In this document: positions 1 to 11,312 of the stretch, piece after piece
Position numbering within the stretch: position 1 is the stretch's first letter
Layout: each line of letters starts with the position of its first letter
DNA from: a virus
DNA length: 20,348 bases
Virus record (IMG/VR): IMGVR_UViG_3300033143_003152
Span: 1-20,348 of that record
Strand: one strand, 5' to 3'
The notes under the pieces: model-generated
The model's input: only the letters and a program-made list of their open reading frames with translations
Told to the model about the DNA's origin: nothing
Database searches by the model: none
Made by a program: the position numbers and the translations under genes

Positions 1-27
1 ACACATGGAGGCATGAAGGGAAAATGA
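1..27 (+). CDS. C-terminal end of an upstream gene (partial)
   Basis: The frame starting at base 1 reads T-H-G-G-M-K-G-K and stops at TGA 25-27. That stop overlaps the ATG of the next gene at 24-26 in the ATGA arrangement used repeatedly downstream, so this is probably the tail end of a gene that begins left of the window. Nothing can be said about its function. An alternative reading is a four-codon leader starting at ATG 13, which is less likely in such a compact operon. Confidence 0.4.
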   Translation, partial: THGGMKGK

Positions 28-1994
28 GTGAATTAATTACTACTAGTTCAAAGGTAGTAAGCCAGATCGTTGAGGATATGCAGCAGCAGAGATTGGAGAA
101 TAGGGAAAAACGGAGGCTTGTAAAACAGAACTGGGAGAGATTGCGGAAACAGAGCGAAGGCTTTTCACGATTTGATAGACAGCAGCCGATTCTTGATTAT
201 GAAAATACAAGGATGTTTTTTGATATTATGCCTGATAATTCCTGGAAAGATCAGCGGTGTTTTATCGTAGGAGGCGGCAAAAGCTTAAAGGATTTTAAAT
301 TTTCTAAGCTCAAAAATGAACTGGTGATTGGCATAAATAGAGCATATGAGAAGATTGATTGTACTGTTAATTTTGCAATGGATCACAGTCTTTATGAATG
401 GATAATAAACGGTGATTTGGGTATGGAATCGAAGAACAAGTTTAATGATTTTAGGGGTATCAAAGTCTGGCTTGATTCTGCCGGCTATGACTACCCAGAT
501 GGCATACATATTTTAAATAAATCAACCGGCAATGCCTTCAGTAAATCCTTAAAAGACGGTATTATCGGGGGGTCCAACTCTGGGTTAGGGGCTTTAAACT
601 TAGCCATATGCCTGGGGGCCAATCCCATATATTTGCTTGGGTTTGACATGAAGGGCGAGAATGGAAAACAAAGCTGGTGGCATAGTGGATATCCGGAAAA
701 ACAACGAGAGAAAGTATATAAACATTTTATCGAAAGTTTTAATAAAGCAGCTCCGGCTTTAAAAAGTCGAGGCATTGAGGTTATAAATCTTAATCCTGAA
801 AGTGAATTGAAGTGCTTTAAATTTGGAGATATCAATAATATTCCTGCTATAAAACGGCCAATAATCATATCATTTTATACGAAAAATACAGGTTATGAAT
901 CACAAGTTGAACATTTGAAAGCTTCAGTTAAGCGGTTTAATCTGGATAGCGACATTGTAGGCATTGTTGATAAGGGCGATTGGCATAAAAACGTGTATTA
1001 TAAGCCTAAATTTATTATGAGAATGTTGAAGAAACATGCAGGCCGCCCTGTAGTTTATGTCGATGCAGATGCTGTAATCAAAGCTAATCCAGTTTTATTT
1101 AACAATTATAATTGTGACTTTGCCTGTCATTTCTTCCAAAACCGGGAGTTGCTATCTGGTACTATTTATTTTGGCAATACAAGAGGATCTCGGTACATTG
1201 TTAATAAATGGCTTGAGGAAGACCGCTTGCATCCGAATACACATATGCCACAGAAGAATTTGAGGACTGTATTTGATAAACAGAAAAAGAATATCATATG
1301 GAAAAAGCTACCGGTTGAATATTGCCGGATTTATGATAGCCGGGACAAGCTAAATGGGAGACCGGTAATAGTGCATTATCAATTAAGTCGCATGTATAAA
1401 AAAACAAGAGCGCGGCGATTCAAATACACAATGAAGCAATCGCTTGTTGAGATCCAGGCATTTTGTAAGGATAAAAATATTTGTCTTTTAGGCAATGCAG
1501 ATTCTATATTACGCAGGGCGCATAATATAGATTCATTTGATATAGTTTGCAGAATGAACCGGGGATCACCAAAAGGAAAAGAAAAATATATAGGCAGCAG
1601 GACTGATATTCTATTCACATCAACCGGGATGAGTGGCCGGATGATCCAATCTGAATTTGACCCGAAGCATTTAGTCTGGATGACAGTTTGCTATAGGCTG
1701 GCCAGCCCCTATACTTTAAGAAATGCAATTCAGAATCCCACTGAGGATTGGAATGAACTTTATAAAAAGCTAAAAATGAATCCTACAACCGGACTTATGG
1801 CCTTATATTTCATTTTAAATCATATTAAATTCAAAAGCTTAACAATATATGGATTTGACTTTTTTGCCACAAAGACTTGGTACAATACCCATATCGATAG
1901 CGGTCAGAAACACAGCGGAAGGAAGGAGAAAGCCTTGTTTATGGATATGATAAAGGATAATCCGAAAATTAAGTTTAAGGGGAAGATAACATGA
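24..1994 (+). CDS. Three-domain glycosyltransferase: DUF115/MptE-like + GT-A sugar transferase-like + GT29 sialyltransferase-like
   Basis: This 656-residue protein looks like three sugar-related domains in one chain. Residues ~76-270 resemble the DUF115/MptE-like family seen in phage and flagellin-glycosylation loci: FIVGGGKSL at 80-88, GSNSGLGALN at 183-192 and LLGFDMKGE at 204-212. Residues ~280-455 resemble a Nucleotid_trans-type GT-A transferase, with YVDADA at 345-350 supplying a DxD-type metal/nucleotide site and IVHYQLSR near 449-456. Residues ~484-650 resemble GT29 sialyltransferases: ICLLGNADS at 486-494, CRMNRG at 509-514, GSRTD at 524-528, NPTTGLMAL at 586-594, YGFDFF at 609-614, then H623, H630 and E635. 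The first ~75 residues are charged and helical. GGAGG at 7-11 and GAAGGG at 15-20 lie upstream of the ATG. Its stop overlaps the next gene by ATGA. Family calls come from motif recognition only; substrate and acceptor are unknown. Confidence 0.8.
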   Translation: MSELITTSSKVVSQIVEDMQQQRLENREKRRLVKQNWERLRKQSEGFSRFDRQQPILDYENTRMFFDIMPDNSWKDQRCFIVGGGKSLKDFKFSKLKNELVIGINRAYEKIDCTVNFAMDHSLYEWIINGDLGMESKNKFNDFRGIKVWLDSAGYDYPDGIHILNKSTGNAFSKSLKDGIIGGSNSGLGALNLAICLGANPIYLLGFDMKGENGKQSWWHSGYPEKQREKVYKHFIESFNKAAPALKSRGIEVINLNPESELKCFKFGDINNIPAIKRPIIISFYTKNTGYESQVEHLKASVKRFNLDSDIVGIVDKGDWHKNVYYKPKFIMRMLKKHAGRPVVYVDADAVIKANPVLFNNYNCDFACHFFQNRELLSGTIYFGNTRGSRYIVNKWLEEDRLHPNTHMPQKNLRTVFDKQKKNIIWKKLPVEYCRIYDSRDKLNGRPVIVHYQLSRMYKKTRARRFKYTMKQSLVEIQAFCKDKNICLLGNADSILRRAHNIDSFDIVCRMNRGSPKGKEKYIGSRTDILFTSTGMSGRMIQSEFDPKHLVWMTVCYRLASPYTLRNAIQNPTEDWNELYKKLKMNPTTGLMALYFILNHIKFKSLTIYGFDFFATKTWYNTHIDSGQKHSGRKEKALFMDMIKDNPKIKFKGKIT

Positions 1995-2950
1995 AAATAG
2001 CAATCGTAAGGGATACTGTCCCGAAAAATGTTTGGGCTGTGTACTGGGAGCAGGCTTGCAAGGATAAGAAGCTTGATTATAAGAAATTTAATAGCCGGGA
2101 TCCTGATTTTATGAGCCAGATATTGAAATATCAGCCTGATCGGGTGCTATGGCGAAGTGGAAACAGCCCCCGCAATAAGATAAAAGACGAACCGCAACGA
2201 TATCTCCTTGAACAGAATGGGCTGAGAATTGTTCCAAATTGGAAAACCCATTGGCCTTATGACCATAAAGTAAGGGAAACGTATCTTTTTAATCTGCACA
2301 AGATTCCGCATCCTAAAACTACAATATTCTGGCAGGAGGAAGACGCGCGGGAATACGTTAAAAAGGCAGAGTATCCATTTGTGATAAAAGCTGATGGTGG
2401 GGCCGGCAGCAAAAGTTTTAAGTTTATAGAATCGAAAAAACAGGCTAAAAAAATGATTGAACAATCGTTTCAGGGGCCTGGGTGTTTTACGGGGCGAGGA
2501 CGGGAAAAGTACATTCTTTATACTCAGGAATATGTGAAGATAGATTTTGTCTGGAGAGTAATCGTAATGAAAGACGAAATCGGTATGGGATACAAAGCAA
2601 ATTTCCGGCCCGGTACGCTGAAAGCAAGCGGACAGGGATTCTTAACTCATGTTCTGCCACCTAGAAAATTATTCACTATGGCAAGAAATATAAATATTAA
2701 ACTTGGATTCGATTGGATGGCATATGATATCGTTTGGAACGATAAAGCAAAAGAATACCAGGTACTTGAAATGTGCGATACTGTAGGCCAGACAGGACAT
2801 GGGGGGCGCAGCGAAACGCTTTATTACCGCAGCGGCCGATGGTATGCGAGAAAGGAAACCAAAAAAATTCAGGAATATGTCTTTAAATTATTCGTATTAG
2901 ACGAAATGAAGCCTGAACCGGCAGAACCGGCAGAGGCTCCGGGGTGCTGA
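1991..2950 (+). CDS. ATP-grasp domain ligase
   Basis: A 319-residue protein with the layout of ATP-grasp carboxylate-amine ligases (RimK/glutathione synthetase-like). Residues ~100-135 carry the segment before the nucleotide-binding lysine and the motif PFVIKADGGAGSKSF (129-143), with K133 the likely ATP-binding lysine and the glycine-rich loop after it. DWMAYDIVW (241-249) and YQVLEMCDT (256-264) correspond to the C-terminal metal/ATP region; the usual E-x-N is E260-M-C here. Enzymes of this fold activate a carboxylate with ATP and join it to an amine, which would fit adding an amino acid or similar amide to a sugar or protein, but the substrate is not visible. The C-terminus ends in a Pro-Ala-Glu repeat tail (308-317). 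It overlaps both neighbours (ATGA at 1991, TGATG at 2948), so it is translated with the glycosyltransferases. Confidence 0.75.
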   Translation: MKIAIVRDTVPKNVWAVYWEQACKDKKLDYKKFNSRDPDFMSQILKYQPDRVLWRSGNSPRNKIKDEPQRYLLEQNGLRIVPNWKTHWPYDHKVRETYLFNLHKIPHPKTTIFWQEEDAREYVKKAEYPFVIKADGGAGSKSFKFIESKKQAKKMIEQSFQGPGCFTGRGREKYILYTQEYVKIDFVWRVIVMKDEIGMGYKANFRPGTLKASGQGFLTHVLPPRKLFTMARNINIKLGFDWMAYDIVWNDKAKEYQVLEMCDTVGQTGHGGRSETLYYRSGRWYARKETKKIQEYVFKLFVLDEMKPEPAEPAEAPGC

Positions 2951-3615
2951 TGAAAGTTACAGTAATTATCCCCAGCTGCTCATCTGAGCGGTTACCAATG
3001 CTTGTAAAAACGATTTGGTCAGTTCTGCAAGGACTATATAAATATGTTCATCCGGTTATTGTCGCTGATGGCAACGAGGAGATTTATAGCAGGATTAAAA
3101 AGGAATTTAAAAGGGATCAAGTCACTGTTATTTTAAATCCGAATAGAAAGGACTGGGTATATACGGTAAATAGTGTGCTAAAGCATATTGATTCTGATTA
3201 TTATATCTACGCTTCAGATGATCTTGTATTTCCTCCGGATTGCATAAAAAATGCTGTTAATGTTATGCAAAGGGATTATCCGGATGGTGATGGTGTGGTG
3301 AGTATAGGCCGAAAAAATCGTTGCGTATTCGGGCTTATGGGTAATAAATTTGTAAATAGATTCCCGGATAGGCAAGTTTTTTGTCCTGATTATATTCATT
3401 ATTGTTCAGATTCTGAGCTTTTAGGGACAGTTAAAAGGCTGGGAAAGCTGACATATCCGCCTGACAGGCAATGCCAGGTCAAGCATTTCAGGATGAAGGA
3501 TGAAACTTGGCGGCTGGCCCGGAGAGCCAGATCCAGGGATAGAGAGATTCACAGAGAGCGGCAGGAAAAAGGTTATCAATGGGGGATTGATTTTAATCGG
3601 GTAACAAGCAGATGA
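2950..3615 (+). CDS. GT2-family glycosyltransferase
   Basis: A 221-residue protein starting VTVIIPSCSSERL at residues 3-15, the classic N-terminal strand of GT-A fold family 2 transferases. VIVADGNEE lies at 36-44 and an acidic site YASDDLVFPPD at 87-97 replaces the DxD motif. The C-terminal part (KHFRMKDETW, then a charged helix and YQWGIDF) resembles the short GT2 proteins found in phage genomes. The chosen start is ATG 2950, which overlaps the previous stop as TGATG; an in-frame GTG at 2944 would add two residues. It most likely moves a sugar from a nucleotide donor in the cytoplasm; no membrane segment is seen. The length is that of a bare catalytic domain. Donor and acceptor are unknown. 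Confidence 0.8.
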   Translation: MKVTVIIPSCSSERLPMLVKTIWSVLQGLYKYVHPVIVADGNEEIYSRIKKEFKRDQVTVILNPNRKDWVYTVNSVLKHIDSDYYIYASDDLVFPPDCIKNAVNVMQRDYPDGDGVVSIGRKNRCVFGLMGNKFVNRFPDRQVFCPDYIHYCSDSELLGTVKRLGKLTYPPDRQCQVKHFRMKDETWRLARRARSRDREIHRERQEKGYQWGIDFNRVTSR

Positions 3616-4445
3616 TAAAGATATATTATGTCCCAGGCTATAGAATAACAAGGGAATATCGACTAATTCAACAAGGGTTGGAGAATAACCCCAGGGTAAA
3701 GCTTGTTAAAACTGCAAAAGAAAGTGATTTTATCTTCCATTTTTATTATGTATCGAAGCACTCAAAGCATTACAAGGCGAAATATGACCCGGAAAAAACC
3801 GTTTTAATTGATTATCATGATAGCCCCAGGTGGATGTCAGGAGTTCCATGTATGGCATATTTTAAACGGAGCTGGGTAAAATTGGCTATTAGAGGATATG
3901 GAGTTATCAAGGTTCCAATCAGCCGGCCTAAAAATTGCTATCCAATAAGCTTTGCAATCATGGATGAGTTTATAATTAAAGACAGTCCGAAAAGGGATAT
4001 CTGGCTGACCTGCACATTGCGAGAGCATGGCCGGCATTTAAACAGAGTCCGGGTTTCAGAACTGCTAGAGTCTATGAAGATAAAAGGAAAGGTACAGATA
4101 GGCGATTTAAATGATGGGTCTATGCGGGGCTTTAACGATGACAAGATGCGGGATTATTTCAAAATAATGAAAAGAAGTCGAATTGTTGTAACCTGCAATC
4201 CTAATCCCTGGGAAGGCGATCACAGGACTTGGGAAGCGTTTGCAAGCGGGGCGCTGGTGTTTATTGACAGGATGTTTACCCCGATAGACCACCCGCTTAT
4301 AGATGGAAAACATTGTATATTTTATGATATATCCGGGCCGGGATTTGAATTGTTGCAGGAGAAGATAAGATATTACATAGATAATCCGGCCAAAGCCGCT
4401 GCGATTGCCAAAACAGGCTATGATTTTACATCAATGAGCTTATGA
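3612..4445 (+). CDS. Glycosyltransferase, CgeB/exostosin-like GT-B type
   Basis: A 277-residue protein whose second half resembles the Glyco_trans_1_2 (CgeB/YkvP-like) or exostosin-like domain. The key stretch is VTCNPNPWEGDHRTWEAFA at 193-211, with E208 in the position of the conserved nucleotide-binding glutamate, followed by SGALVFID (212-219), DGKHCIFYD (231-239) and a C-terminal helix with IDNPAKAAAIA. The first half contains VLIDYHDSP (64-72) and looks like the smaller N-terminal Rossmann-like half of a GT-B enzyme, shorter than full-length members. ATGA overlaps join it to both neighbours. It probably transfers a sugar as part of the same glycan as the neighbouring enzymes. Whether it is GT4-like or exostosin-like cannot be settled by eye. 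Confidence 0.72.
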   Translation: MIKIYYVPGYRITREYRLIQQGLENNPRVKLVKTAKESDFIFHFYYVSKHSKHYKAKYDPEKTVLIDYHDSPRWMSGVPCMAYFKRSWVKLAIRGYGVIKVPISRPKNCYPISFAIMDEFIIKDSPKRDIWLTCTLREHGRHLNRVRVSELLESMKIKGKVQIGDLNDGSMRGFNDDKMRDYFKIMKRSRIVVTCNPNPWEGDHRTWEAFASGALVFIDRMFTPIDHPLIDGKHCIFYDISGPGFELLQEKIRYYIDNPAKAAAIAKTGYDFTSMSL

Positions 4446-4996
4446 AGATACGACCTTCACAGCATGTGACAGAATTTAGGACATATCTGGAGTTATGTGA
4501 GTTATATTTAAAACGCATGAAAATAAGAAATCCCCTGATTGTAGAATTGGGAGTATATAACAATGCTCAGAAGAAGTTTTACAAACAGCTTTTAAATGCT
4601 GAACATATCGGAGTTGACGCATCGAATAAGCGAAGTGAACCGGATATTTTAGGCAATACTCATGATCCTGAGACACTAAAGGCGCTAAAAGAAAAGCTTG
4701 GTGGCCGGCCAATCGATATCCTTTTCATTGACGCTGGACACGAATACGAAGATATAAAAAAAGATTATAAAATGTATGCTCCCCTCTGCTCTGGAATAGT
4801 TGCACTTCACGATACAGAATTGAGACGAAACACATCAAGAACATCGGCCCAAGTATGGCGATTTTGGGACGAACTAAAAGAAAAGGGGAGAAAAGCGATA
4901 GATGGACATGAAGATTATTTGTTTGTATCGTTGCATCAAAGACATTATGAAAAATGGAATAAAAACGTAGGATTAGGAATAATAATAAAACAATGA
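4442..4996 (+). CDS. Class I SAM-dependent methyltransferase, Methyltransf_24-like
   Basis: A 184-residue protein with the outline of a small Rossmann-fold methyltransferase. LIVELGVYNNAQ at 32-43 sits where motif I (the SAM-binding loop) is expected, followed by HIGVDAS (55-61). IDILFIDAGHEYEDIKKDY (91-109) and IVALHDTE (119-126) are typical of the Methyltransf_24 and cephalosporin-hydroxylase-like group that often accompanies glycosyltransferases and methylates sugars. Motif I is degenerate: the usual second and third glycines are replaced by Tyr-Asn-Asn-Ala, so SAM binding may be altered or the enzyme inactive. It overlaps its neighbours by ATGA at both ends, so it is co-translated with the cassette. 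Glycan O-methylation is the leading guess. Confidence 0.68.
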   Translation: MKIRPSQHVTEFRTYLELCELYLKRMKIRNPLIVELGVYNNAQKKFYKQLLNAEHIGVDASNKRSEPDILGNTHDPETLKALKEKLGGRPIDILFIDAGHEYEDIKKDYKMYAPLCSGIVALHDTELRRNTSRTSAQVWRFWDELKEKGRKAIDGHEDYLFVSLHQRHYEKWNKNVGLGIIIKQ

Positions 4997-5604
4997 AAAA
5001 GTTTGTAATCTATACCGGAGTTTTTGGAAAGCCTTGCCGGTCCCGTATCCCTGGTATATCCAGTCAGGATTATGATGCTTTTTGTTATACTGATATTGAG
5101 ATTGAGAATGATTTCTATGAAGTGAAACCTTTTTACAAAAGCAATCTTGACCCTGTACGCCGGAATCGGTTTATTAAGATTATGATTCCTGATGAGCTTT
5201 TCGATAATTACGAATACAGCTTATATATAGATTATAAGCATCCGCTGAAAGTTGACTTTGACTGGCTCATGAAATGCTTAGGAAATAAACACGATTTCCT
5301 GGTGAGTAAGCATCTGAAGCGCAACTGTATCTATGAGGAAGGCGAAGTCTGTCTTGCCAAAGGTAAGGGGGATAGGCTGGAAATATTAAATCAATTAGAG
5401 CTTTACCGGAGCAAGAACTATCCAAAAAATAATGGACTATATGCTAATTACTGGATATTCCGTAGGCATACGACCCGATTAAAAGCGATGATGATTATCT
5501 GGTGGGGGCATGTATTAAATTATTCCCATCGGGACCAACTGAGCTTGCCTTATGTTTTATGGGAGAATAACTATAAAATTTCTATGTATAAGAGGAGAAA
5601 ATAA
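4993..5604 (+). CDS. DUF616 (TOD1/MUCI70-like) glycosyltransferase domain protein
   Basis: A 203-residue protein matching the DUF616 / TOD1-MUCI70 glycosyltransferase-like pattern throughout. The order is YDAFCYTDI (27-35), RRNRFIKIMIP (56-66), YSLYIDYKH (75-83), NCIYEEGEVC (111-120), a Tyr-Pro-x-x-x-Gly-Leu stretch near 143-149, and SHRDQLSLPYVLW (178-190). Such domains occur in plant cell-wall enzymes and in bacterial and phage polysaccharide loci, and are predicted GT-A fold transferases. It is the last gene of the sugar cassette: it starts in an ATGA overlap and its TAA abuts the next ATG (TAAATG), with AGGAG just before. The acceptor is unknown. Confidence 0.75.
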   Translation: MKKFVIYTGVFGKPCRSRIPGISSQDYDAFCYTDIEIENDFYEVKPFYKSNLDPVRRNRFIKIMIPDELFDNYEYSLYIDYKHPLKVDFDWLMKCLGNKHDFLVSKHLKRNCIYEEGEVCLAKGKGDRLEILNQLELYRSKNYPKNNGLYANYWIFRRHTTRLKAMMIIWWGHVLNYSHRDQLSLPYVLWENNYKISMYKRRK

Positions 5605-5871
5605 ATGGCAATAAAACAAAAACTAAACGCCGCCTGGCAAACTAACGAAGCTATGGACGCCGTGTTTGAGGTACGGGCACAGGTTGAGAATGCCTATAAC
5701 GTACTTCAGGAGAGTATCGCAAGGATTAATGAGATTACCTCCGATGCAAGTTTTGCCAATGTAGACGCCGAGATTAAAACTGAGGGTGTGGCAATAATAA
5801 GCATTTTAAACCAGAGTAAGCAGGCTTTAGATGGACATCTTGGCTTCATAAACTGGAGGAAACCTGAATAA
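5605..5871 (+). CDS. Small helical phage protein of unknown function
   Basis: An 88-residue protein not recognised as a named family. It is almost wholly helical in appearance, with the pattern of a long amphipathic helix (roughly residues 5-45) and a second helix from 50 to 75. It has no signal peptide or membrane segment. AGGAG lies a few bases before its ATG, and its TAA overlaps the next gene's ATG (TAATG at 5869-5873). Its place just before a large fibre-like protein suggests a structural accessory or small decoration protein, but this is inference from position. Confidence 0.65.
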   Translation: MAIKQKLNAAWQTNEAMDAVFEVRAQVENAYNVLQESIARINEITSDASFANVDAEIKTEGVAIISILNQSKQALDGHLGFINWRKPE

Positions 5872-7943
5872 TGGCAATCAATTTCACCTATGACGAGGCG
5901 ACAAATAAAGTAGTCGTAACTGGAGGGACTTCTGGTACTCCTGCAACTTTTACCAACTTTGTAACATTTGACCGAGCAGGAGTAGATACAATATTGCTTT
6001 CCGCTGGCTCGCCCGCCTCAGACTTAGCCTTGACTTATGCGGTGCGACCCGTTGAGGATTTGGCTATTCTGGTTAAATGTGTAGTCGCCAACAAGACTGC
6101 CGAAGCTGATTTTATCTTTATCACTGGCAAGGATTGGAGAGGTGCAGCTCAGACTGAAAGCATAGATGTAACCGCAGGGAATGGAAGCTATACAACGACA
6201 AAATACTGGTCAGAAATAACTTCTCTTGATTGTTCAGACAATGCTGCTGGCGGTGGTGTGGTTTGGGCTGATGGTGATTTATCTGTTACTCAGGATGTAT
6301 GGGGAGTTATTTGGGATTATGGAAATAGGCAGTATCGGATAGATGCCAAATTTCCAATAGGAGACACCACTACCCCAACATATTTTAAGAGCATTGATGA
6401 AAGTGTATATTTTTCCTTTGAAACCTATGTTACAGATAATGCTGATTTAAAAATAGGTGAAAAAAGAGTTAATTATCCACAGAAGGGGTCTTATTGGGAT
6501 TTGCCTTCGGTAATTGGTTGGGATGCCTATATTTTAGCTAGTAGCGGGTCAGCACTTGGGATTTATGGCTCAGTTTTAAAATTCAGAGTCGCTGGTTGGG
6601 TACAAATTTATAACCCTGAAATTTATGATTCAGTAATTATGGGGGATACTGTAATAAAGAACCCCATCTTTCAGGGAAATAATATAAGGATATACAATAC
6701 TTATTTTACAAACTTTCAAAATAGTATTTCTATCTGGGCAAGTCCAGTTGCGTTTGATAATTGTCACATAGATGGTATCGGAATAGCAATTAATGGCAAA
6801 AATACAGCGACAGTAAAAGGTGTAGATATAACAGACCTTTTGGGGGGTCGTTGGCATTCAGATGTGGGGTCTAACGGCCCAAACACCTTAAATTTTCTTG
6901 ACCCCAAATTTATTTTAAGCGTAATTCGGCATAGCAATGTGGGGAATATTACAACGCATCAACTCACCTGCAACATCCATATTGCCGATAAAGATGGGGC
7001 TGATTTAGCTGGGGTAACTGTGGACTGTGAAGACCAATTTGGGGTTGCTGTTTGGGCTGCTGGCACTATCGCTACAAATGCAGGCGGAGATATAGCAGAG
7101 CAGATAATAACCTATAAGAAGTGGGAAGGGCTAGGAGACCCCCCTTCTGTAACTGAATACTCCCCCCATAAATTCACAATATCCAAAGCGGGCTATGAAA
7201 CAATGGTGCTGGATGCGGTGACGGTGGATGGGAAAATTGGCTGGCATTTAGAACTATTGGATGAATTAGCTGAAGGCGATGTAAGGGATGGGGTTGCATA
7301 TGGCGAAGATAGCGAGGGAAATCTTGAGCTTCCGGCTGCTGGGGATGTCGAGGATGGAGTAGGATTTGGTTCAAATGGTGTTGAATTTACCGGCGACTTT
7401 GAAGTACCCCCAGAGGCGGATGTAAGAGATGGGGAAGGCTATGGTGCGGGAGGTGCTGAATTTGAGGGAGATTTGGATTTGCCAGCTATAGGGGATGTTG
7501 AAAAAGGAGTCCAATTTGATAGCCTGACAAAGACAGGTACTTTCAAGAGTCCGGCTGAACCAGATGTAAGAGATGGCGAGGGGTACGGTGAAGATGATAC
7601 AGAGTTTACCGGAACTTTAGACTTGCCTGCGGAAGCTGATGTTGAAGATGGCGTAACATTTGACGGGGCAACTAAAGAGGGTAATTTTGAAGCTCCGGCG
7701 GAGGCAGATGTTGAGGATGGTGTAGGATACGGCTCAAATGGGGCAGAGTTTGAAGGCGACTTAGAGCTTCCAGCCGAGGAAGATGTTGAAGTCGGGGTTG
7801 GATATGGCTCATTGGGGACGGAATTTGAAGGAACTTATCTGGGCTTGAGGGGCAATAATTTAACAGCCGTATTAGAAAAAAGCGTTGCTCTAACAGGATA
7901 CTTGGAAAAGAAAGTAAGCCTTACAGGGGAGCTTAAATCATGA
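5871..7943 (+). CDS. Large beta-rich fibre-like structural protein with C-terminal DV/DG/YG repeats
   Basis: This 690-residue protein looks like a modular phage fibre or decoration protein. Residues ~1-330 are beta-rich and Gly/Thr/Asn-rich. Residues ~230-320 have a run of short strands with Asn-Ile/Val turns suggestive of a beta-helix. Residues ~365-465 resemble an Ig-like or carboxypeptidase-regulatory-like beta sandwich (DKDGADLAGVTVDC, then HKFTISKAGYETM). Residues ~469-660 hold eight ~24-residue repeats (separate entry). The last 27 residues repeat LTxxLEKxVx about three times. There is no signal peptide, coiled coil or enzymatic motif. GGAGG at 5855-5859 precedes the ATG. It is the first large structural gene after the sugar cassette, so it is a candidate glycan acceptor, though not an established one. 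It could be a tail fibre, head fibre or whisker. Confidence 0.72.
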   Translation: MAINFTYDEATNKVVVTGGTSGTPATFTNFVTFDRAGVDTILLSAGSPASDLALTYAVRPVEDLAILVKCVVANKTAEADFIFITGKDWRGAAQTESIDVTAGNGSYTTTKYWSEITSLDCSDNAAGGGVVWADGDLSVTQDVWGVIWDYGNRQYRIDAKFPIGDTTTPTYFKSIDESVYFSFETYVTDNADLKIGEKRVNYPQKGSYWDLPSVIGWDAYILASSGSALGIYGSVLKFRVAGWVQIYNPEIYDSVIMGDTVIKNPIFQGNNIRIYNTYFTNFQNSISIWASPVAFDNCHIDGIGIAINGKNTATVKGVDITDLLGGRWHSDVGSNGPNTLNFLDPKFILSVIRHSNVGNITTHQLTCNIHIADKDGADLAGVTVDCEDQFGVAVWAAGTIATNAGGDIAEQIITYKKWEGLGDPPSVTEYSPHKFTISKAGYETMVLDAVTVDGKIGWHLELLDELAEGDVRDGVAYGEDSEGNLELPAAGDVEDGVGFGSNGVEFTGDFEVPPEADVRDGEGYGAGGAEFEGDLDLPAIGDVEKGVQFDSLTKTGTFKSPAEPDVRDGEGYGEDDTEFTGTLDLPAEADVEDGVTFDGATKEGNFEAPAEADVEDGVGYGSNGAEFEGDLELPAEEDVEVGVGYGSLGTEFEGTYLGLRGNNLTAVLEKSVALTGYLEKKVSLTGELKS
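7276..7850 (+). repeat. Eight tandem ~24-residue protein repeats inside the fibre-like gene
   Basis: Translated in the gene's frame, the unit reads roughly D-V-(R/E)-D-G-V-x-(Y/F)-G/D, five or six variable residues, E-F-x-G-x-L-x-L-P-A-x-A. Eight copies start near residues 470, 492, 517, 542, 566, 591, 615 and 640. Copies alternate between a YG type with Glu-Phe-x-Gly and an FD type lacking it, such as VTFDGATKEG. At the DNA level the copies are well diverged, so this is an old protein repeat, not a recent DNA duplication. Similar DVR-G-YG repeats occur in other phage structural proteins. The repeat probably forms a beta-solenoid or chain of small beta units. Confidence 0.8.
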
Positions 7944-8299
7944 GTGAATGGACTATAAAAAAAGGTAATACAGCGGTTCAGGATATCCTGATAAAAGATG
8001 CGGATGGGGCTGCGGTTGACAACTTGGCTGCTGCTACAGAGATAAAATTCCATATAAAACTTCTCGAAACAGGGGCGGCTTTAGTGGAAAAGACCGTAGG
8101 TGCTGGGATTGAAGTTGACACGCCCTCGGAAGGATATCTGAGACTGACTCTATCAGCAGAAGATACTGACCAAATCCCTAAGACGTATTATATGGGATTG
8201 CAAATAAAATGGGCTGCGGAAGTAAGGGAAGTTATCTTGAAAGTGGATGGCATTGAGACGGAGAAATTCTTGATTACTCAGGATATAGTGAATACTTAG
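7940..8299 (+). CDS. Small beta-sandwich phage structural protein, BppU-N-like
   Basis: A 119-residue protein beginning with TIKKGNTAVQDILIKDADG (residues 5-23), the pattern of N-terminal Ig-like domains of phage baseplate upper proteins (BppU-N-like) and related small structural proteins: a conserved KKGD/N, then a strand and a D-x-DG turn, an EIKFHI strand near 44-49, and alternating strands to the end. No enzymatic motif is visible. It overlaps the fibre-like gene by ATGA at 7940, so the two are likely made together and may interact. The exact role (decoration, fibre attachment or baseplate) is inference. Confidence 0.6.
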   Translation: MSEWTIKKGNTAVQDILIKDADGAAVDNLAAATEIKFHIKLLETGAALVEKTVGAGIEVDTPSEGYLRLTLSAEDTDQIPKTYYMGLQIKWAAEVREVILKVDGIETEKFLITQDIVNT

Positions 8300-8305
8300 G
8301 AGGCA

Positions 8306-8611
8306 ATGATGAGCTTAGGATGGTTTAGTTCACTTAGTGAAGCAAACGAATATTTTATAAATGAACGGTTATCAATCACGGCATGGGAGGCGTTGACTGA
8401 TGATTCAAAAAAAGAAGCTGCGGTGAGGATGGCTTATAATCGTATTTATTACAGTCCTAAATTTGATGTTCCTACGTATGCAGATGCCACGGCTGCACAG
8501 CTTGTAACGCTCAAGAAAATAAATGGTGAAATGGCTTATTATTTAGCCCAGCACTTAGCTGATGAGGATAGACGGGTATTGTTAAAGAGGTATATGATAA
8601 GGATATGTTAA
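8306..8611 (+). CDS. Head-tail adaptor/connector protein (DnaT-like phage family), frame broken near its end
   Basis: A 101-residue reading frame. SLSEANEYFINERLSITAW, then a stretch of charged residues with KKEAAVRMAYNRI and GEMAYYLAQHLADEDRR, follows the phage head-tail adaptor pattern often labelled 'putative DnaT-like'. AGGAGG at 8298-8303 is too close to ATG 8306; the second ATG at 8309 is the better start. After Arg90 the sequence becomes VLLKRYMIRIC and stops at 8609-8611, while the frame one base back continues sensibly to 8733. Members of this family are usually near 140-170 residues, so the stop looks premature. The adaptor normally sits between portal and head-closure proteins, which fits the genes that follow. 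Confidence 0.6.
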   Translation: MMSLGWFSSLSEANEYFINERLSITAWEALTDDSKKEAAVRMAYNRIYYSPKFDVPTYADATAAQLVTLKKINGEMAYYLAQHLADEDRRVLLKRYMIRIC

Positions 8612-8733
8612 GCAAATTGCCAATTCCGCCTATAGTTGAGGAATTGCTGGCAGATTTTATAACAGGCGGATTTTATGCCATAGGGATAGAACGGAATGAG
8701 GACGATGATATAGACGAAGGGGAGGGAACTTGA
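8572..8733 (+). pseudogene. Displaced C-terminal part of the connector gene (-1 frame)
   Basis: The frame one base behind the connector frame opens at 8572 after a stop at 8569-8571 and reads GIVKEVYDKDMLSKLPIPP, then VEELLADFITGGFYAIG and an acidic tail, stopping at TGA 8731-8733. Joining it to the upstream frame by a single -1 step between 8572 and 8611 gives a 142-residue protein with a natural ending. The stop then overlaps a TTG start at 8730 (TTGA), matching the overlap style of the whole operon. A loss of one G at GGG 8574-8576 would explain it; a separate 42-residue gene from ATG 8605 is a weaker alternative. Confidence 0.55.
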
Positions 8734-8780
8734 CTAAAAAGTTTGCTTTAATCCCGAATAGGGAAGATAATCCCGAATAG
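8730..8780 (+). pseudogene. Cut-off 5' end of the MuF-like gene (natural TTG start)
   Basis: TTG at 8730-8732 follows GGGGAGGG (8719-8726), a strong ribosome binding site at good spacing, and overlaps the preceding stop. From it the frame reads MTKKFALIPNREDNPE and hits TAG at 8778-8780, inside the second copy of a 19-bp tandem repeat. If one repeat copy is removed, this frame runs straight into the MuF-like gene, giving 286 residues through to 9609. This is therefore probably the original start, separated from its gene by the duplication. Confidence 0.65.
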
Positions 8781-8786
8781 GGAAGA
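8749..8786 (+). repeat. Perfect 19-bp tandem duplication
   Basis: Bases 8749-8767 and 8768-8786 are identical (TAATCCCGAATAGGGAAGA). The unit length is not a multiple of three, so the second copy shifts the reading frame by one base. It falls eight codons into the open frame that starts at TTG 8730 and disconnects it from the MuF-like gene. Confidence 0.95.
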
Positions 8787-8796
8787 AATTGCTACG

Positions 8797-9609
8797 TTGT
8801 CAAGGATCTATTCTGCTGCTCAAAAAGAGATTACAGCGGAATTATTGCGGCTGGATTTTGCTGATTATAAAGAATTGGCAGCGATAAGTATTGAAAAGAA
8901 AATAGACATTATTTTAAGACGACTGAGCAGGCTTGCTATCCGGTGGACAAAAGACACAGTTCCGGTTGCCTATACAGAAGGCTACAGGAAATCAGCAGAA
9001 ATATTGGATAAGATTGGAGCGGATAAAGACCCATTTTTTGAATTGAAAAAGCATAGAAATTCAGTTGATAATTATATTGACCTTACAGCTAATGATTTTA
9101 GACAGAATGTATCAACCTATTTAATGTTGTCAAGGCAGGCAACCTCAGCAGCGCAGCAAATCCAAGCATTCGATTTAAGGAATGAGGAGATAATTGCCAA
9201 ATTGTTAGACGATGCTATCCGGGAAGGGGCATCAAGGCAGGCATTGCAGCAGAAGATTCGCATCCATTTTCAGCGAAAACTTTATGAGCAAAAATTTATT
9301 AACATAAATGGTAGAGATTACAACCTGATTAAATACGCCAAGATGGTTGCAAGGACAAGGCTCAGGGCTGTACAATCTGAGGCCGTTAAAAATACTTCAG
9401 AACAATATGAGAATGATTTAATTGAAATATCGGATCACGGGTGCGATTGTGATATTTGCAAGGAATTTGAAGGTAATGTTTATTCTATTTCCGGCAATAC
9501 TCCAGGCTATCCCATGATGATGGAATGGCCGCCTTACCACCCATCTTGTGAGCATTCCGCCAGCCCGACCTCTGAAATTGCCTTAGGCATAAGGGAGCAA
9601 TTCGCATGA
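8797..9609 (+). CDS. MuF-like minor head protein (SPP1 gp7 / Phage Mu F family), 5' end displaced
   Basis: The body of this 270-residue frame is a MuF-type minor head protein, which binds the portal and may be ejected with the DNA. The N-terminal ~140 residues are helical. MVARTRLRAVQSEA at 183-196 leads into the conserved C-terminal module with C216, C218 and C221, the Pro-rich PPYHPSCEH stretch (245-253) and H248, C251 and H253, a Cys/His set typical of this domain. No toxin domain is fused. TTG 8797 is the only available start in this frame, with a weak GGGAAG 11 bases upstream; the natural start is more likely TTG 8730, displaced by a 19-bp duplication. The stop overlaps the next gene (ATGA at 9606). 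Expression from the present sequence would need reinitiation. Confidence 0.75.
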   Translation: MSRIYSAAQKEITAELLRLDFADYKELAAISIEKKIDIILRRLSRLAIRWTKDTVPVAYTEGYRKSAEILDKIGADKDPFFELKKHRNSVDNYIDLTANDFRQNVSTYLMLSRQATSAAQQIQAFDLRNEEIIAKLLDDAIREGASRQALQQKIRIHFQRKLYEQKFININGRDYNLIKYAKMVARTRLRAVQSEAVKNTSEQYENDLIEISDHGCDCDICKEFEGNVYSISGNTPGYPMMMEWPPYHPSCEHSASPTSEIALGIREQFA

Positions 9610-9914
9610 TTAGATCATACGCAGTTGACGACTTAACAGTCCTTTTTGACGAAGAACATGATATTCATGGAGAGCCGGGCGCAACGCTGAATGTTGAAAT
9701 GAAAGGTTATGTGGATTGGAAAACTCATCTGATCAGGAATGCAGCCGGCGAACAGGTTATATCCAGAGGGATGGTATATGTTATTTATAGCAGAAAATTG
9801 AATCATAAGGATAGAATTTACAATATAAATGGCGATGGGATTGAATATGCTATTTTAGATGTAAGGCAAGGAAAGGATTTTGCAGAGAATCATCAAGAGG
9901 TGCATTTAGCATGA
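9606..9914 (+). CDS. Head closure (stopper) protein
   Basis: A 102-residue beta-rich protein with the pattern of small head-closure/head-tail joining proteins: KGYVDWKTHLIRNAAGEQV at ~33-51, SRGMVYVIYSRKL (53-65), DRIYNINGDGIEYAI (69-83), DVRQGKDF, and the final H-x-EVHLA. Such proteins seal the portal after packaging and receive the tail. The ATGA overlap with the MuF-like gene and the following neck genes fit the usual portal-to-tail gene order. The family assignment rests on pattern and position. Confidence 0.68.
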   Translation: MIRSYAVDDLTVLFDEEHDIHGEPGATLNVEMKGYVDWKTHLIRNAAGEQVISRGMVYVIYSRKLNHKDRIYNINGDGIEYAILDVRQGKDFAENHQEVHLA

Positions 9915-10321
9915 ATAAATCCGGCATGTCTTTTGATACAAGCGACTTTGATAAAGAATTCAAAGACGTAACAAAAAATGTTATTCCTTCTTTAGGTGGC
10001 AAAGGTTTATTTGACGCGGGGAACGAGGTAACACATGATGCAATTTCATTACCGCCCCAGGCCCCAAAATTACACGGTGATTTATGGGGATCAAGGATCA
10101 CAGAGAAAGCAAAAGAAGATCCCGGAGATATTTCAGTCACAGTAGGATTTAATATTGAATATGCAACTAAAATGCACGAAGCTGAACCTGGAAGATATAA
10201 CTATACTACTGATAGAGGAGCTTCAAGTCCTGGGCCAAAGTTTCTTGAAACTAAATTGAATTGGTTTAGAAATAAATATATGGCTATCGTTGCGGCAGTT
10301 ATAAAAGCAGGTGGTAAATAA
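9911..10321 (+). CDS. HK97 gp10-like neck / tail completion protein
   Basis: A 136-residue protein. FNIEYATKMHEAEPG at 80-94 and SPGPKFLETKL at 106-116 match the HK97 gp10-like family: a Tyr-Ala-x-x-x-His-Glu core and a Pro-x-x-Phe-Leu-x-x-x-Leu C-terminal helix. These proteins complete the tail or neck. The position between head closure and tail terminator is the standard one. The start overlaps the preceding gene as ATGA, and the stop overlaps the next ATG as TAATG (10319-10323). Confidence 0.78.
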   Translation: MNKSGMSFDTSDFDKEFKDVTKNVIPSLGGKGLFDAGNEVTHDAISLPPQAPKLHGDLWGSRITEKAKEDPGDISVTVGFNIEYATKMHEAEPGRYNYTTDRGASSPGPKFLETKLNWFRNKYMAIVAAVIKAGGK

Positions 10322-10737
10322 TGTTAAAAGAAATCGCAAAATTTATTGAGGACAAAACGGCTTCTTTAACAATAGGAACAAATCTATTTGAAGGCCATAG
10401 ATTACAGGACGCCCCGGATCGTTGCACTTGTATCTTGGAAACAGGGGGAGGAGGCCTTAACTTTGATCTAACAGATCGGGTTGATAAAATGATTCAAGTT
10501 TTAAGCAGAGCAAAGACATATTTTACGGCCAGGGATGATGCCTGGGAGGTATTTGACGCTTTGCATACTGGAGCTTATGGGATGTCAGGCCATACATTAA
10601 CTCATGTTCTTCCGGCTCTCCAGGATTACGAGGCTATGACTATTGAGGCTATATCAGACCCTCAATATATAGGCCAGGATGAAAAAAGAAGATATGAATT
10701 TTCTTGCAATTTTTTATTTAAAATTAGAAACGCATAG
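10321..10737 (+). CDS. Tail terminator / minor capsid 3-like protein
   Basis: A 138-residue protein resembling the Minor_capsid_3 / tail terminator family. An N-terminal helix is followed by FEGHRLQDAPDRCTCILE and a mixed alpha/beta core with SRAKTYFTARDDAWEVFDA at 62-80, where the R-A-x-x-Y-x-x-A-R-D-x-A-W pattern is typical, and a final strand RYEFSCNFLFKI. Terminators cap the tail tube and fix its length with the tape measure. It is followed by the tail tube gene after a 59-base gap, the usual order. A hairpin begins at its stop codon. Confidence 0.7.
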   Translation: MLKEIAKFIEDKTASLTIGTNLFEGHRLQDAPDRCTCILETGGGGLNFDLTDRVDKMIQVLSRAKTYFTARDDAWEVFDALHTGAYGMSGHTLTHVLPALQDYEAMTIEAISDPQYIGQDEKRRYEFSCNFLFKIRNA

Positions 10738-10762
10738 CAGGATAAATCGTTTTATGTCCTGC
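10737..10762 (+). other. Imperfect hairpin between tail terminator and tail tube genes
   Basis: GCAGGATAAA (10737-10746) can pair with TTTA...TCCTGC (ending 10762), leaving a two-base TG bulge and a short loop. It starts at the last base of the TAG stop. No U-run follows, so it does not look like an intrinsic terminator. It could affect mRNA stability or processing upstream of the highly expressed tube gene. Confidence 0.35.
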
Positions 10763-10785
10763 ATGAGTATAGATTTAAAATTTTT

Positions 10786-10792
10786 AGGAGGT
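10786..10792 (+). promoter_or_regulatory. Strong Shine-Dalgarno of the tail tube gene
   Basis: AGGAGGT at 10786-10792 lies four bases before ATG 10797. It is one of the strongest ribosome binding sites in the window and sits in the longest intergenic gap, consistent with the high tail-tube copy number needed per virion. Confidence 0.8.
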
Positions 10793-10796
10793 TAAA

Positions 10797-11312
10797 ATGC
10801 CAAATCCGAACAGAGATTTAGGGCCTTGCAGTGTTATTTGGGACCCGGCTGGAGCCAATGTTGAACTTAATCCAACCTTTGGAGGGGTAACATTCACGGA
10901 TGAAGTTCTGGACGTGGATATTCATGAAGATCAGGCAGGTGAAACTATTGTTGATGGAGTGCATACAGGTAGGACTGTTCAAGTTACTGTTCCTATGACT
11001 AGAAGCTCACTTGCACAGCTTGAGGTTGCTATTAAAGGATCAACAGCAGGGGCTACAAATTTAAAGGTTAAAAATTGGGTTGGGGGAAATCAGTTCCCAC
11101 TTTCAAAGGAGCTGAGAATAAAGCCAATAGTTGACAATGTTCCATCTGCGGATACAGAGGAATGGCTGCATGTTTTCAGAACATACCCGAAATCCAATCT
11201 TGAATTTGTATACAACAACGCTGACCAGCGGGTTACCAATGTAGTTTTTAAAGCTTTTCCAGATGATGAGAGTGGCAATGTACGGCAAATGTGGCGTATG
11301 GGACCAGCATAA
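10797..11312 (+). CDS. Major tail tube protein
   Basis: A 171-residue protein at the tail-tube position, between the terminator and the tail assembly chaperones. It is beta-rich: SVIWDPAGANVELNPTFGG near 12-30, then VTFTDEVLDVDIHEDQAGE, TVQVTVPMTRSSLAQLE, and RVTNVVFKAFPDDE near the end. This matches tail-tube-like families in which a two-sheet barrel polymerises into the hollow tube. No sheath gene lies beside it, pointing to a non-contractile tail. The AGGAGGT site supports strong translation. Identification combines position, size and fold-like pattern. Confidence 0.78.
   Translation: MPNPNRDLGPCSVIWDPAGANVELNPTFGGVTFTDEVLDVDIHEDQAGETIVDGVHTGRTVQVTVPMTRSSLAQLEVAIKGSTAGATNLKVKNWVGGNQFPLSKELRIKPIVDNVPSADTEEWLHVFRTYPKSNLEFVYNNADQRVTNVVFKAFPDDESGNVRQMWRMGPA

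Follow-up and report, generated by a model that had tools for sequence, protein, structure and literature searches.

The 20,348-base virus record IMGVR_UViG_3300033143_003152 (positions 1 to 20,348; the whole of this stretch is referred to as the window) carries on its plus strand a siphovirus structural operon that encodes a minor head protein, connectors, a tail-tube-like protein, a tape measure and tail proteins, and, ahead of these, a cassette of genes for glycosyltransferases (GTs) and sugar-modifying enzymes. The record is apparently a fragment, since its start falls inside the head operon. Here, we describe a comparative analysis of this cassette and its viral relatives, and we propose that the cassette probably glycosylates the phage's own capsid, in the cytoplasm and step by step, from a Maf-like start and with a serotype-like swapping of the later enzymes.

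In the proposed mechanism, the Maf/Cst-II-like N-terminal domain (N-domain) of the first gene, g1, would act in the cytoplasm, placing the first sugar on capsid protein that has just been made. The GT-A and GT29-type domains fused to it and the separate GTs encoded by g3, g4 and g6 would then lengthen the chain while it is attached to the protein, no lipid carrier being involved, and the glycan would be edited by the methyltransferase, ATP-grasp and cupin enzymes of the cassette. The first enzyme would be retained because the capsid protein must be recognised, and the extension enzymes would be exchanged between phages, giving rise to capsid "serotypes" whose advantage may lie in shielding or in changed surface contacts.

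Results

The g1 N-domain has a fixed position behind a putative capsid gene

Positions 1-549 of the window are 98.9% identical in DNA to positions 6055-6603 of contig L006, where that contig ends. Upstream of g1, L006 carries a cupin gene (PF07883) that shares an ATGA overlap with it and, further upstream, a putative major capsid gene (351 amino acids), beyond which lie a cement-like and a weakly portal-like gene. From this match, the window opens just after the putative capsid gene and the cupin gene, and the cassette begins earlier than position 24, at the latter.

When IMG/VR was scanned with no query other than the putative capsid protein, 46 loci were recovered, of which 11 lie on contigs that end too soon and 35, including a few near-duplicates, are readable. 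In all 35, the g1 N-domain is encoded one to three genes downstream of the putative capsid gene (at +1 in 25, at +2 in nine and at +3 in one). The reverse scan, with the N-domain, yielded 325 viral loci; the 80 best were retained, and in most of them the same capsid gene lies directly before the N-domain, on the same strand and commonly 60-100 bp away. In GTDB, full-length g1 had no matches and the N-domain had three, all in phage-type loci and none in a capsule locus. A bacterial capsule locus, which the initial annotation had named as a setting that would refute its reading, was rejected on these grounds.

The same arrangement occurs with other capsid lineages and in isolates. In L107 and L084, N-domain genes follow closely on unrelated genes with matches to annotated capsid genes of phages. 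D3-like Pseudomonas phages have, in the same slot, a capsid gene, a sialyltransferase-like gene, connector genes, a GT9 gene and a methyltransferase gene, and Tetraselmis viridis virus S20 has a presumed capsid gene behind a protease gene, two sialyltransferase-like genes, GT genes, a methyltransferase gene and a head-closure gene, the presumed capsid protein being 45% identical to that of the D3-like phages. Phage-encoded GTs linked to virion structural genes were found in every readable locus and in isolates as well. The initial annotation had suggested a search for its gene set beside capsid genes of other phages, and similar cassettes do recur in many phages. The cassette very probably modifies the phage particle, as that annotation had supposed; its choice of a fibre as the partner did not hold up, the constant neighbour being the putative major capsid gene.

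That a tail or fibre protein such as g8 is glycosylated in place of the capsid, so changing host binding, is unlikely. In the window, g8 does follow the cassette in the same operon, and a related gene lies beside tail genes in the jumbo phages CcrColossus and Bambus; however, g7-g9 are missing from nearly all relatives, occurring in two other distinct ones only, and the putative capsid gene is always near g1. The fibre was rejected as a constant partner because this insert is so rare. The fibre-like g8 itself had no match among 50,697 phage records.

A conserved first enzyme is followed by exchanged genes

Median identity across 57 distinct loci is 0.42 for the N-domain versus 0.44 for the putative capsid protein. 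Turnover of the other cassette proteins was computed on 26 complete cassettes, using locus pairs with a capsid identity of 0.3-0.7: on average 9-15% of these proteins are common to such a pair, and for 35 of 123 no other complete cassette holds a homologue. The domains attached to the N-domain vary as well. L002 and L003 encode the complete three-domain g1, L007 has a gene of its own for each of the first two domains, and in L011 and L013 the N-domain is joined to GT2 or GT9 domains instead. From none to about ten genes separate the N-domain gene from g10 and the minor head gene in the relatives. In a family comparison of 150 cassette proteins, GT2 is matched by 30; further families matched are methyltransferase, GT1-like, sulfotransferase, rhamnosyltransferase-like, radical SAM, TOD1/MUCI70, cupin, epimerase, LicD and GT9, and the L002 cassette additionally holds a pyruvyl transferase together with LicD. 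A conserved N-domain with swapped followers is the pattern of a candidate serotype locus with a fixed first step.

Variability of this kind might also mark a general cargo site in which the N-domain is no GT at all (for example, an MptE-like pterin enzyme). The very variable contents, which in some loci include transketolase halves, radical SAM and DUF4254 proteins, and a PF01973 score of the window's g1 below the Pfam cut-off would fit such a site. Against it, all 35 readable loci retain the first gene, which is repeatedly fused to GT domains and has a Maf fold, and GTs and sugar-modifying enzymes abound among the contents; we regard this explanation as very improbable.

The relatives include prophages of Ca. 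Aminicenantes, and remodelling of the host surface, by lysogenic conversion or for the exclusion of other phages, has therefore to be considered. Genome G001 carries two such prophages, with the capsid gene and then the N-domain in both, and a survey of 396 genomes of the Aminicenantes phylum gave three strong N-domain matches (E below 1e-60), all behind a capsid gene, the others being weak and generic. LicD and pyruvyl transferase, present in the L002 cassette, are also known from surface polysaccharides. The cassette genes, however, lie inside a late head operon, and neither the window genes nor the 25 commonest families of the 150 cassette proteins include a lipid-carrier, flippase, polymerase or gtr-type family (GtrA/GtrB plus a serotype-specific membrane GT, sought by Pfam match). 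Host-surface remodelling is, on this evidence, distinctly unlikely.

g1 combines a Maf-like domain with two further transferase domains

The AlphaFold model of g1 (predicted local distance difference test, pLDDT, 83) has three folded parts. The N-domain matches the Maf glycosyltransferase 5mu5 (Z 15.3, root-mean-square deviation (rmsd) 3.8 over 196 residues) in an alignment confined to the central Maf domain, which pairs residues 58-279 of g1 with chain residues 256-516 and after which g1 continues into other GT domains. By profile, the N-domain matches phrog_4603, alpha-2,3-sialyltransferase (9.9e-25). PF01973 (MptE-like) is matched by 34 of 34 sampled N-domain homologues (E<0.01), any other family by at most five. 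D208 is among the invariant residues of the N-domain. Maf proteins transfer nonulosonic acids to Ser/Thr residues of flagellin in O-linkage, and their PF01973 domain resembles Cst-II (PMC11339370).

The best structural match of the middle domain is 2p73, a capsid-glycosylation enzyme of the chlorovirus PBCV-1 (Z 17.1, rmsd 3.0, 181 residues). The C-terminal domain (C-domain) scores 32.3 bits against the Pfam GT29 family PF00777 (cut-off 23) and matches human ST6GALNAC2 in fold, and its GT29-type motifs, including H-x4-E, are intact in six homologues.

The sugar donor may be a CMP-nonulosonate

One relative, L093, encodes NeuB (4.9e-80) and a CTP_transf_3 cytidylyltransferase of the CMP-sialate-synthetase type (1.3e-29; CMP, cytidine monophosphate) within its cassette. 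These enzyme types catalyse the last two steps to a CMP-nonulosonate. The g1 homologue of L093 consists of the N-domain and a GT-A domain only, and the N-domain is therefore the recognised candidate user of the nonulosonate product within that gene. NeuB is also present in the host genome G001, and none was seen in two other genomes. Relatives that lack NeuB would need a host-derived donor or another sugar.

The cassettes of L093 (8303-19773; contents by Pfam) and L077 (11359-20098; contents by resemblance) also hold transketolase halves, radical SAM and B12-binding proteins and DUF4254 proteins, pointing to unusual sugar precursors that may be made by the phage.

Five of the six cassette genes keep their order in other viruses

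The initial annotation described a six-gene cassette at positions 24-5604, chained by ATGA/TGATG overlaps and leading into structural genes, and the open reading frames, their Pfam families and the gene order in relatives bear this out. All six frames are present and intact. They are joined by four-base ATGA overlaps or TGATG, and the junction of g6 with g7 is a plain TAA-ATG without overlap. A chance arrangement is excluded, because homologues of five of the six genes keep the same order in other viral contigs. The sixth, the ATP-grasp gene g2, has a weak structural match to GARS 2yw2 and no homologue among the viral loci examined or in the 50,697 phage records; it is the sole source of the "amide-decorated" glycan of the initial annotation, which is accordingly doubtful.

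Glycosylation of hypermodified bases in the phage DNA would be another use for such enzymes, and phage GTs with this activity are known (PMC12619734 cites examples). A place beside the capsid gene fits this function poorly, and a thymidylate-synthase-family gene was found in none of 24 viral relatives (33-73 kb, records that may be incomplete), in a search that detected its controls. This agrees with the initial annotation, which had seen no support for the DNA option; we consider it exceedingly improbable.

Discussion

Several observations weigh against glycosylation of the capsid. The upstream gene is named a capsid gene from gene order; a structure model of its product from a six-row alignment (pLDDT 33) gave no confirmation, and profile comparison with the PDB, lambda E and the D3-like and S20 capsids gave no match. 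Its only annotated homologue in our search, in Microcystis phage MACPNOA1 (25-26% identity), is annotated as hypothetical. Two divergent capsid homologues have no N-domain gene behind them, and in CcrColossus and similar jumbo phages a related gene lies beside tail genes. The jumbo phages XacN1 and Bambus have related genes, and the stretches examined there contain no annotated capsid gene. Identities of the N-domain and the capsid protein are correlated (rho 0.44, with none of 300 permutations as high), a correlation no stronger than for other head genes, which therefore shows co-inheritance and not contact. Finally, NeuB occurs in one of the 24 viral relatives. We nevertheless hold that capsid glycosylation probably accounts best for the fixed position of the N-domain and the turnover behind it.

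Virion glycosylation in general is already known from mycobacteriophages (Che8, Corndog and Myrna; Freeman et al. 2023, cited in PMC12363180 and PMC12619734). These phages, like those described here, encode their own GTs; their targets are capsid and tail-tube proteins, and here the capsid is the presumed one. They have one or a few GTs. In the present phages, the gene behind the putative capsid gene always encodes a Maf-like first enzyme, to which GT modules are fused, and the multi-gene cassette that follows is swapped. The capsid-locked modular form is best regarded as new: in the literature searched, we found no description of a capsid-locked Maf-like first step with swapped followers across several capsid lineages.

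With the Maf flagellin glycosyltransferases, g1 shares the fold of its N-domain and the Pfam family, and it may likewise act on the product of a neighbouring gene. Unlike them, it is matched in the central Maf domain only, is fused to other GT domains and neighbours a putative capsid gene rather than a flagellin gene. PBCV-1 also glycosylates its capsid stepwise with virus-encoded enzymes, one of which is the best fold match of the g1 middle domain; it is, however, a eukaryotic algal virus, the identity is 10-11%, no Maf-like enzyme is implied, and a common GT-A fold shows no common function. Bacterial O-antigen and capsule serotype loci resemble the cassette in their fixed position and conserved borders and in the exchange of genes of GT, methyl-, pyruvyl-, LicD- and nonulosonate types, but the cassette lies inside a viral head operon, and no lipid-carrier, flippase or polymerase family was seen in the set of genes and families given above.

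In the D3-like Pseudomonas phages (Detrevirus) and S20, the region between the capsid and head-closure genes contains a sialyltransferase-like gene, and genes for GTs and methyltransferases are close by. They differ in that their capsid proteins are unrelated by profile comparison and that the D3-like gene encodes only 135 amino acids and may be a remnant. This short gene, "PmgO" (L167, 3981-4385; L168, 6881-7285), lies between the capsid and connector genes with a GT9/methyltransferase pair nearby; we found no discussion of it in the literature searched.

More tentatively, it is possible that a widespread group of uncultivated tailed phages attaches a sialic-acid-like sugar to the capsid in flagellin-style O-linkage, by means of a capsid-adjacent Maf-type transferase, that a hypervariable "serotype" cassette extends it, and that some members make their own CMP-nonulosonate. 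So far, glycosylation of particle proteins is known from few phage isolates. If our proposal is true, glycosylation of the shell would be a constitutive and diversifying trait of whole phage lineages, the fixed pair of capsid and transferase genes would serve as a simple genomic marker for it, and the D3-like phages could provide a bench model. One would then also have to ask why changeable sugars on the capsid are favoured in phages whose hosts are environmental bacteria, since animal antibodies are an unlikely reason there.

Features of the window and additional observations

Downstream of the cassette and a rare insert, the operon continues with siphovirus head-completion and tail genes (Table 1).

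Table 1. Coordinates of the cassette, its domains and its borders in the window
Feature	Position	Strand	Evidence and occurrence
3' end of cupin gene, first cassette gene	1..27	+	rest on contig L006
g1, 656-amino-acid three-domain transferase, anchor gene of the cassette	24..1994	+	
g1 N-domain, residues about 58-279, Maf/Cst-II-like (PF01973), presumed first-step transferase	195..860	+	
g1 middle domain, residues about 275-464, GT-A fold, DAD motif at 347-349	846..1415	+	
g1 C-domain, residues about 471-656, GT29-type sialyltransferase, H630-x4-E635	1434..1991	+	
g2, ATP-grasp ligase (RimK/GARS type)	1991..2950	+	PF08443 21.8 bits (cut-off 21), PF01071 7e-6
g3, GT2 glycosyltransferase	2944 (or ATG 2950)..3615	+	PF00535 1.1e-14, 55.2 bits; kept in L002, L003, L005
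g4, GT1-like glycosyltransferase, Glyco_trans_1_2	3612..4445	+	PF13524 9.1e-12, 45.6 bits; also L003, L009
g5, SAM (S-adenosylmethionine) methyltransferase, Methyltransf_24	4442..4996	+	PF13578 3.1e-6, 28.4 bits (cut-off 26.3); also L003, L009
g6, TOD1/MUCI70-type glycosyltransferase	4993..5604	+	PF04765 4.7e-15, 56.1 bits; also L002, L003, L009
g7-g9, 88-amino-acid protein, 690-amino-acid fibre-like protein, 119-amino-acid protein	5605..8299	+	rare insert; homologues only L024/L060 and L117
Downstream border: g10, minor head gene, connectors, tail-tube-like gene	8306..11312	+	kept in relatives

Two irregularities occur at the downstream border (8306-8800). The product of g10 has 101 amino acids versus 154-156 in relatives, its C-terminal part running on in another frame, and the start of the minor head gene contains a tandem duplication of roughly 19 bases. 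These are either real lesions or assembly errors; the relatives have intact copies. In L009, the minor head protein (3153-4853) is interrupted at residues 292-545 by an intein-like insertion (PF14890), which is absent from the relatives. In Aminicenantes genome G001, the contig that holds a prophage of this family (contig 10; L144 and L147) also encodes BREX-like, Eco57I-type and GmrSD-type defence genes and sigma-54 regulator genes.

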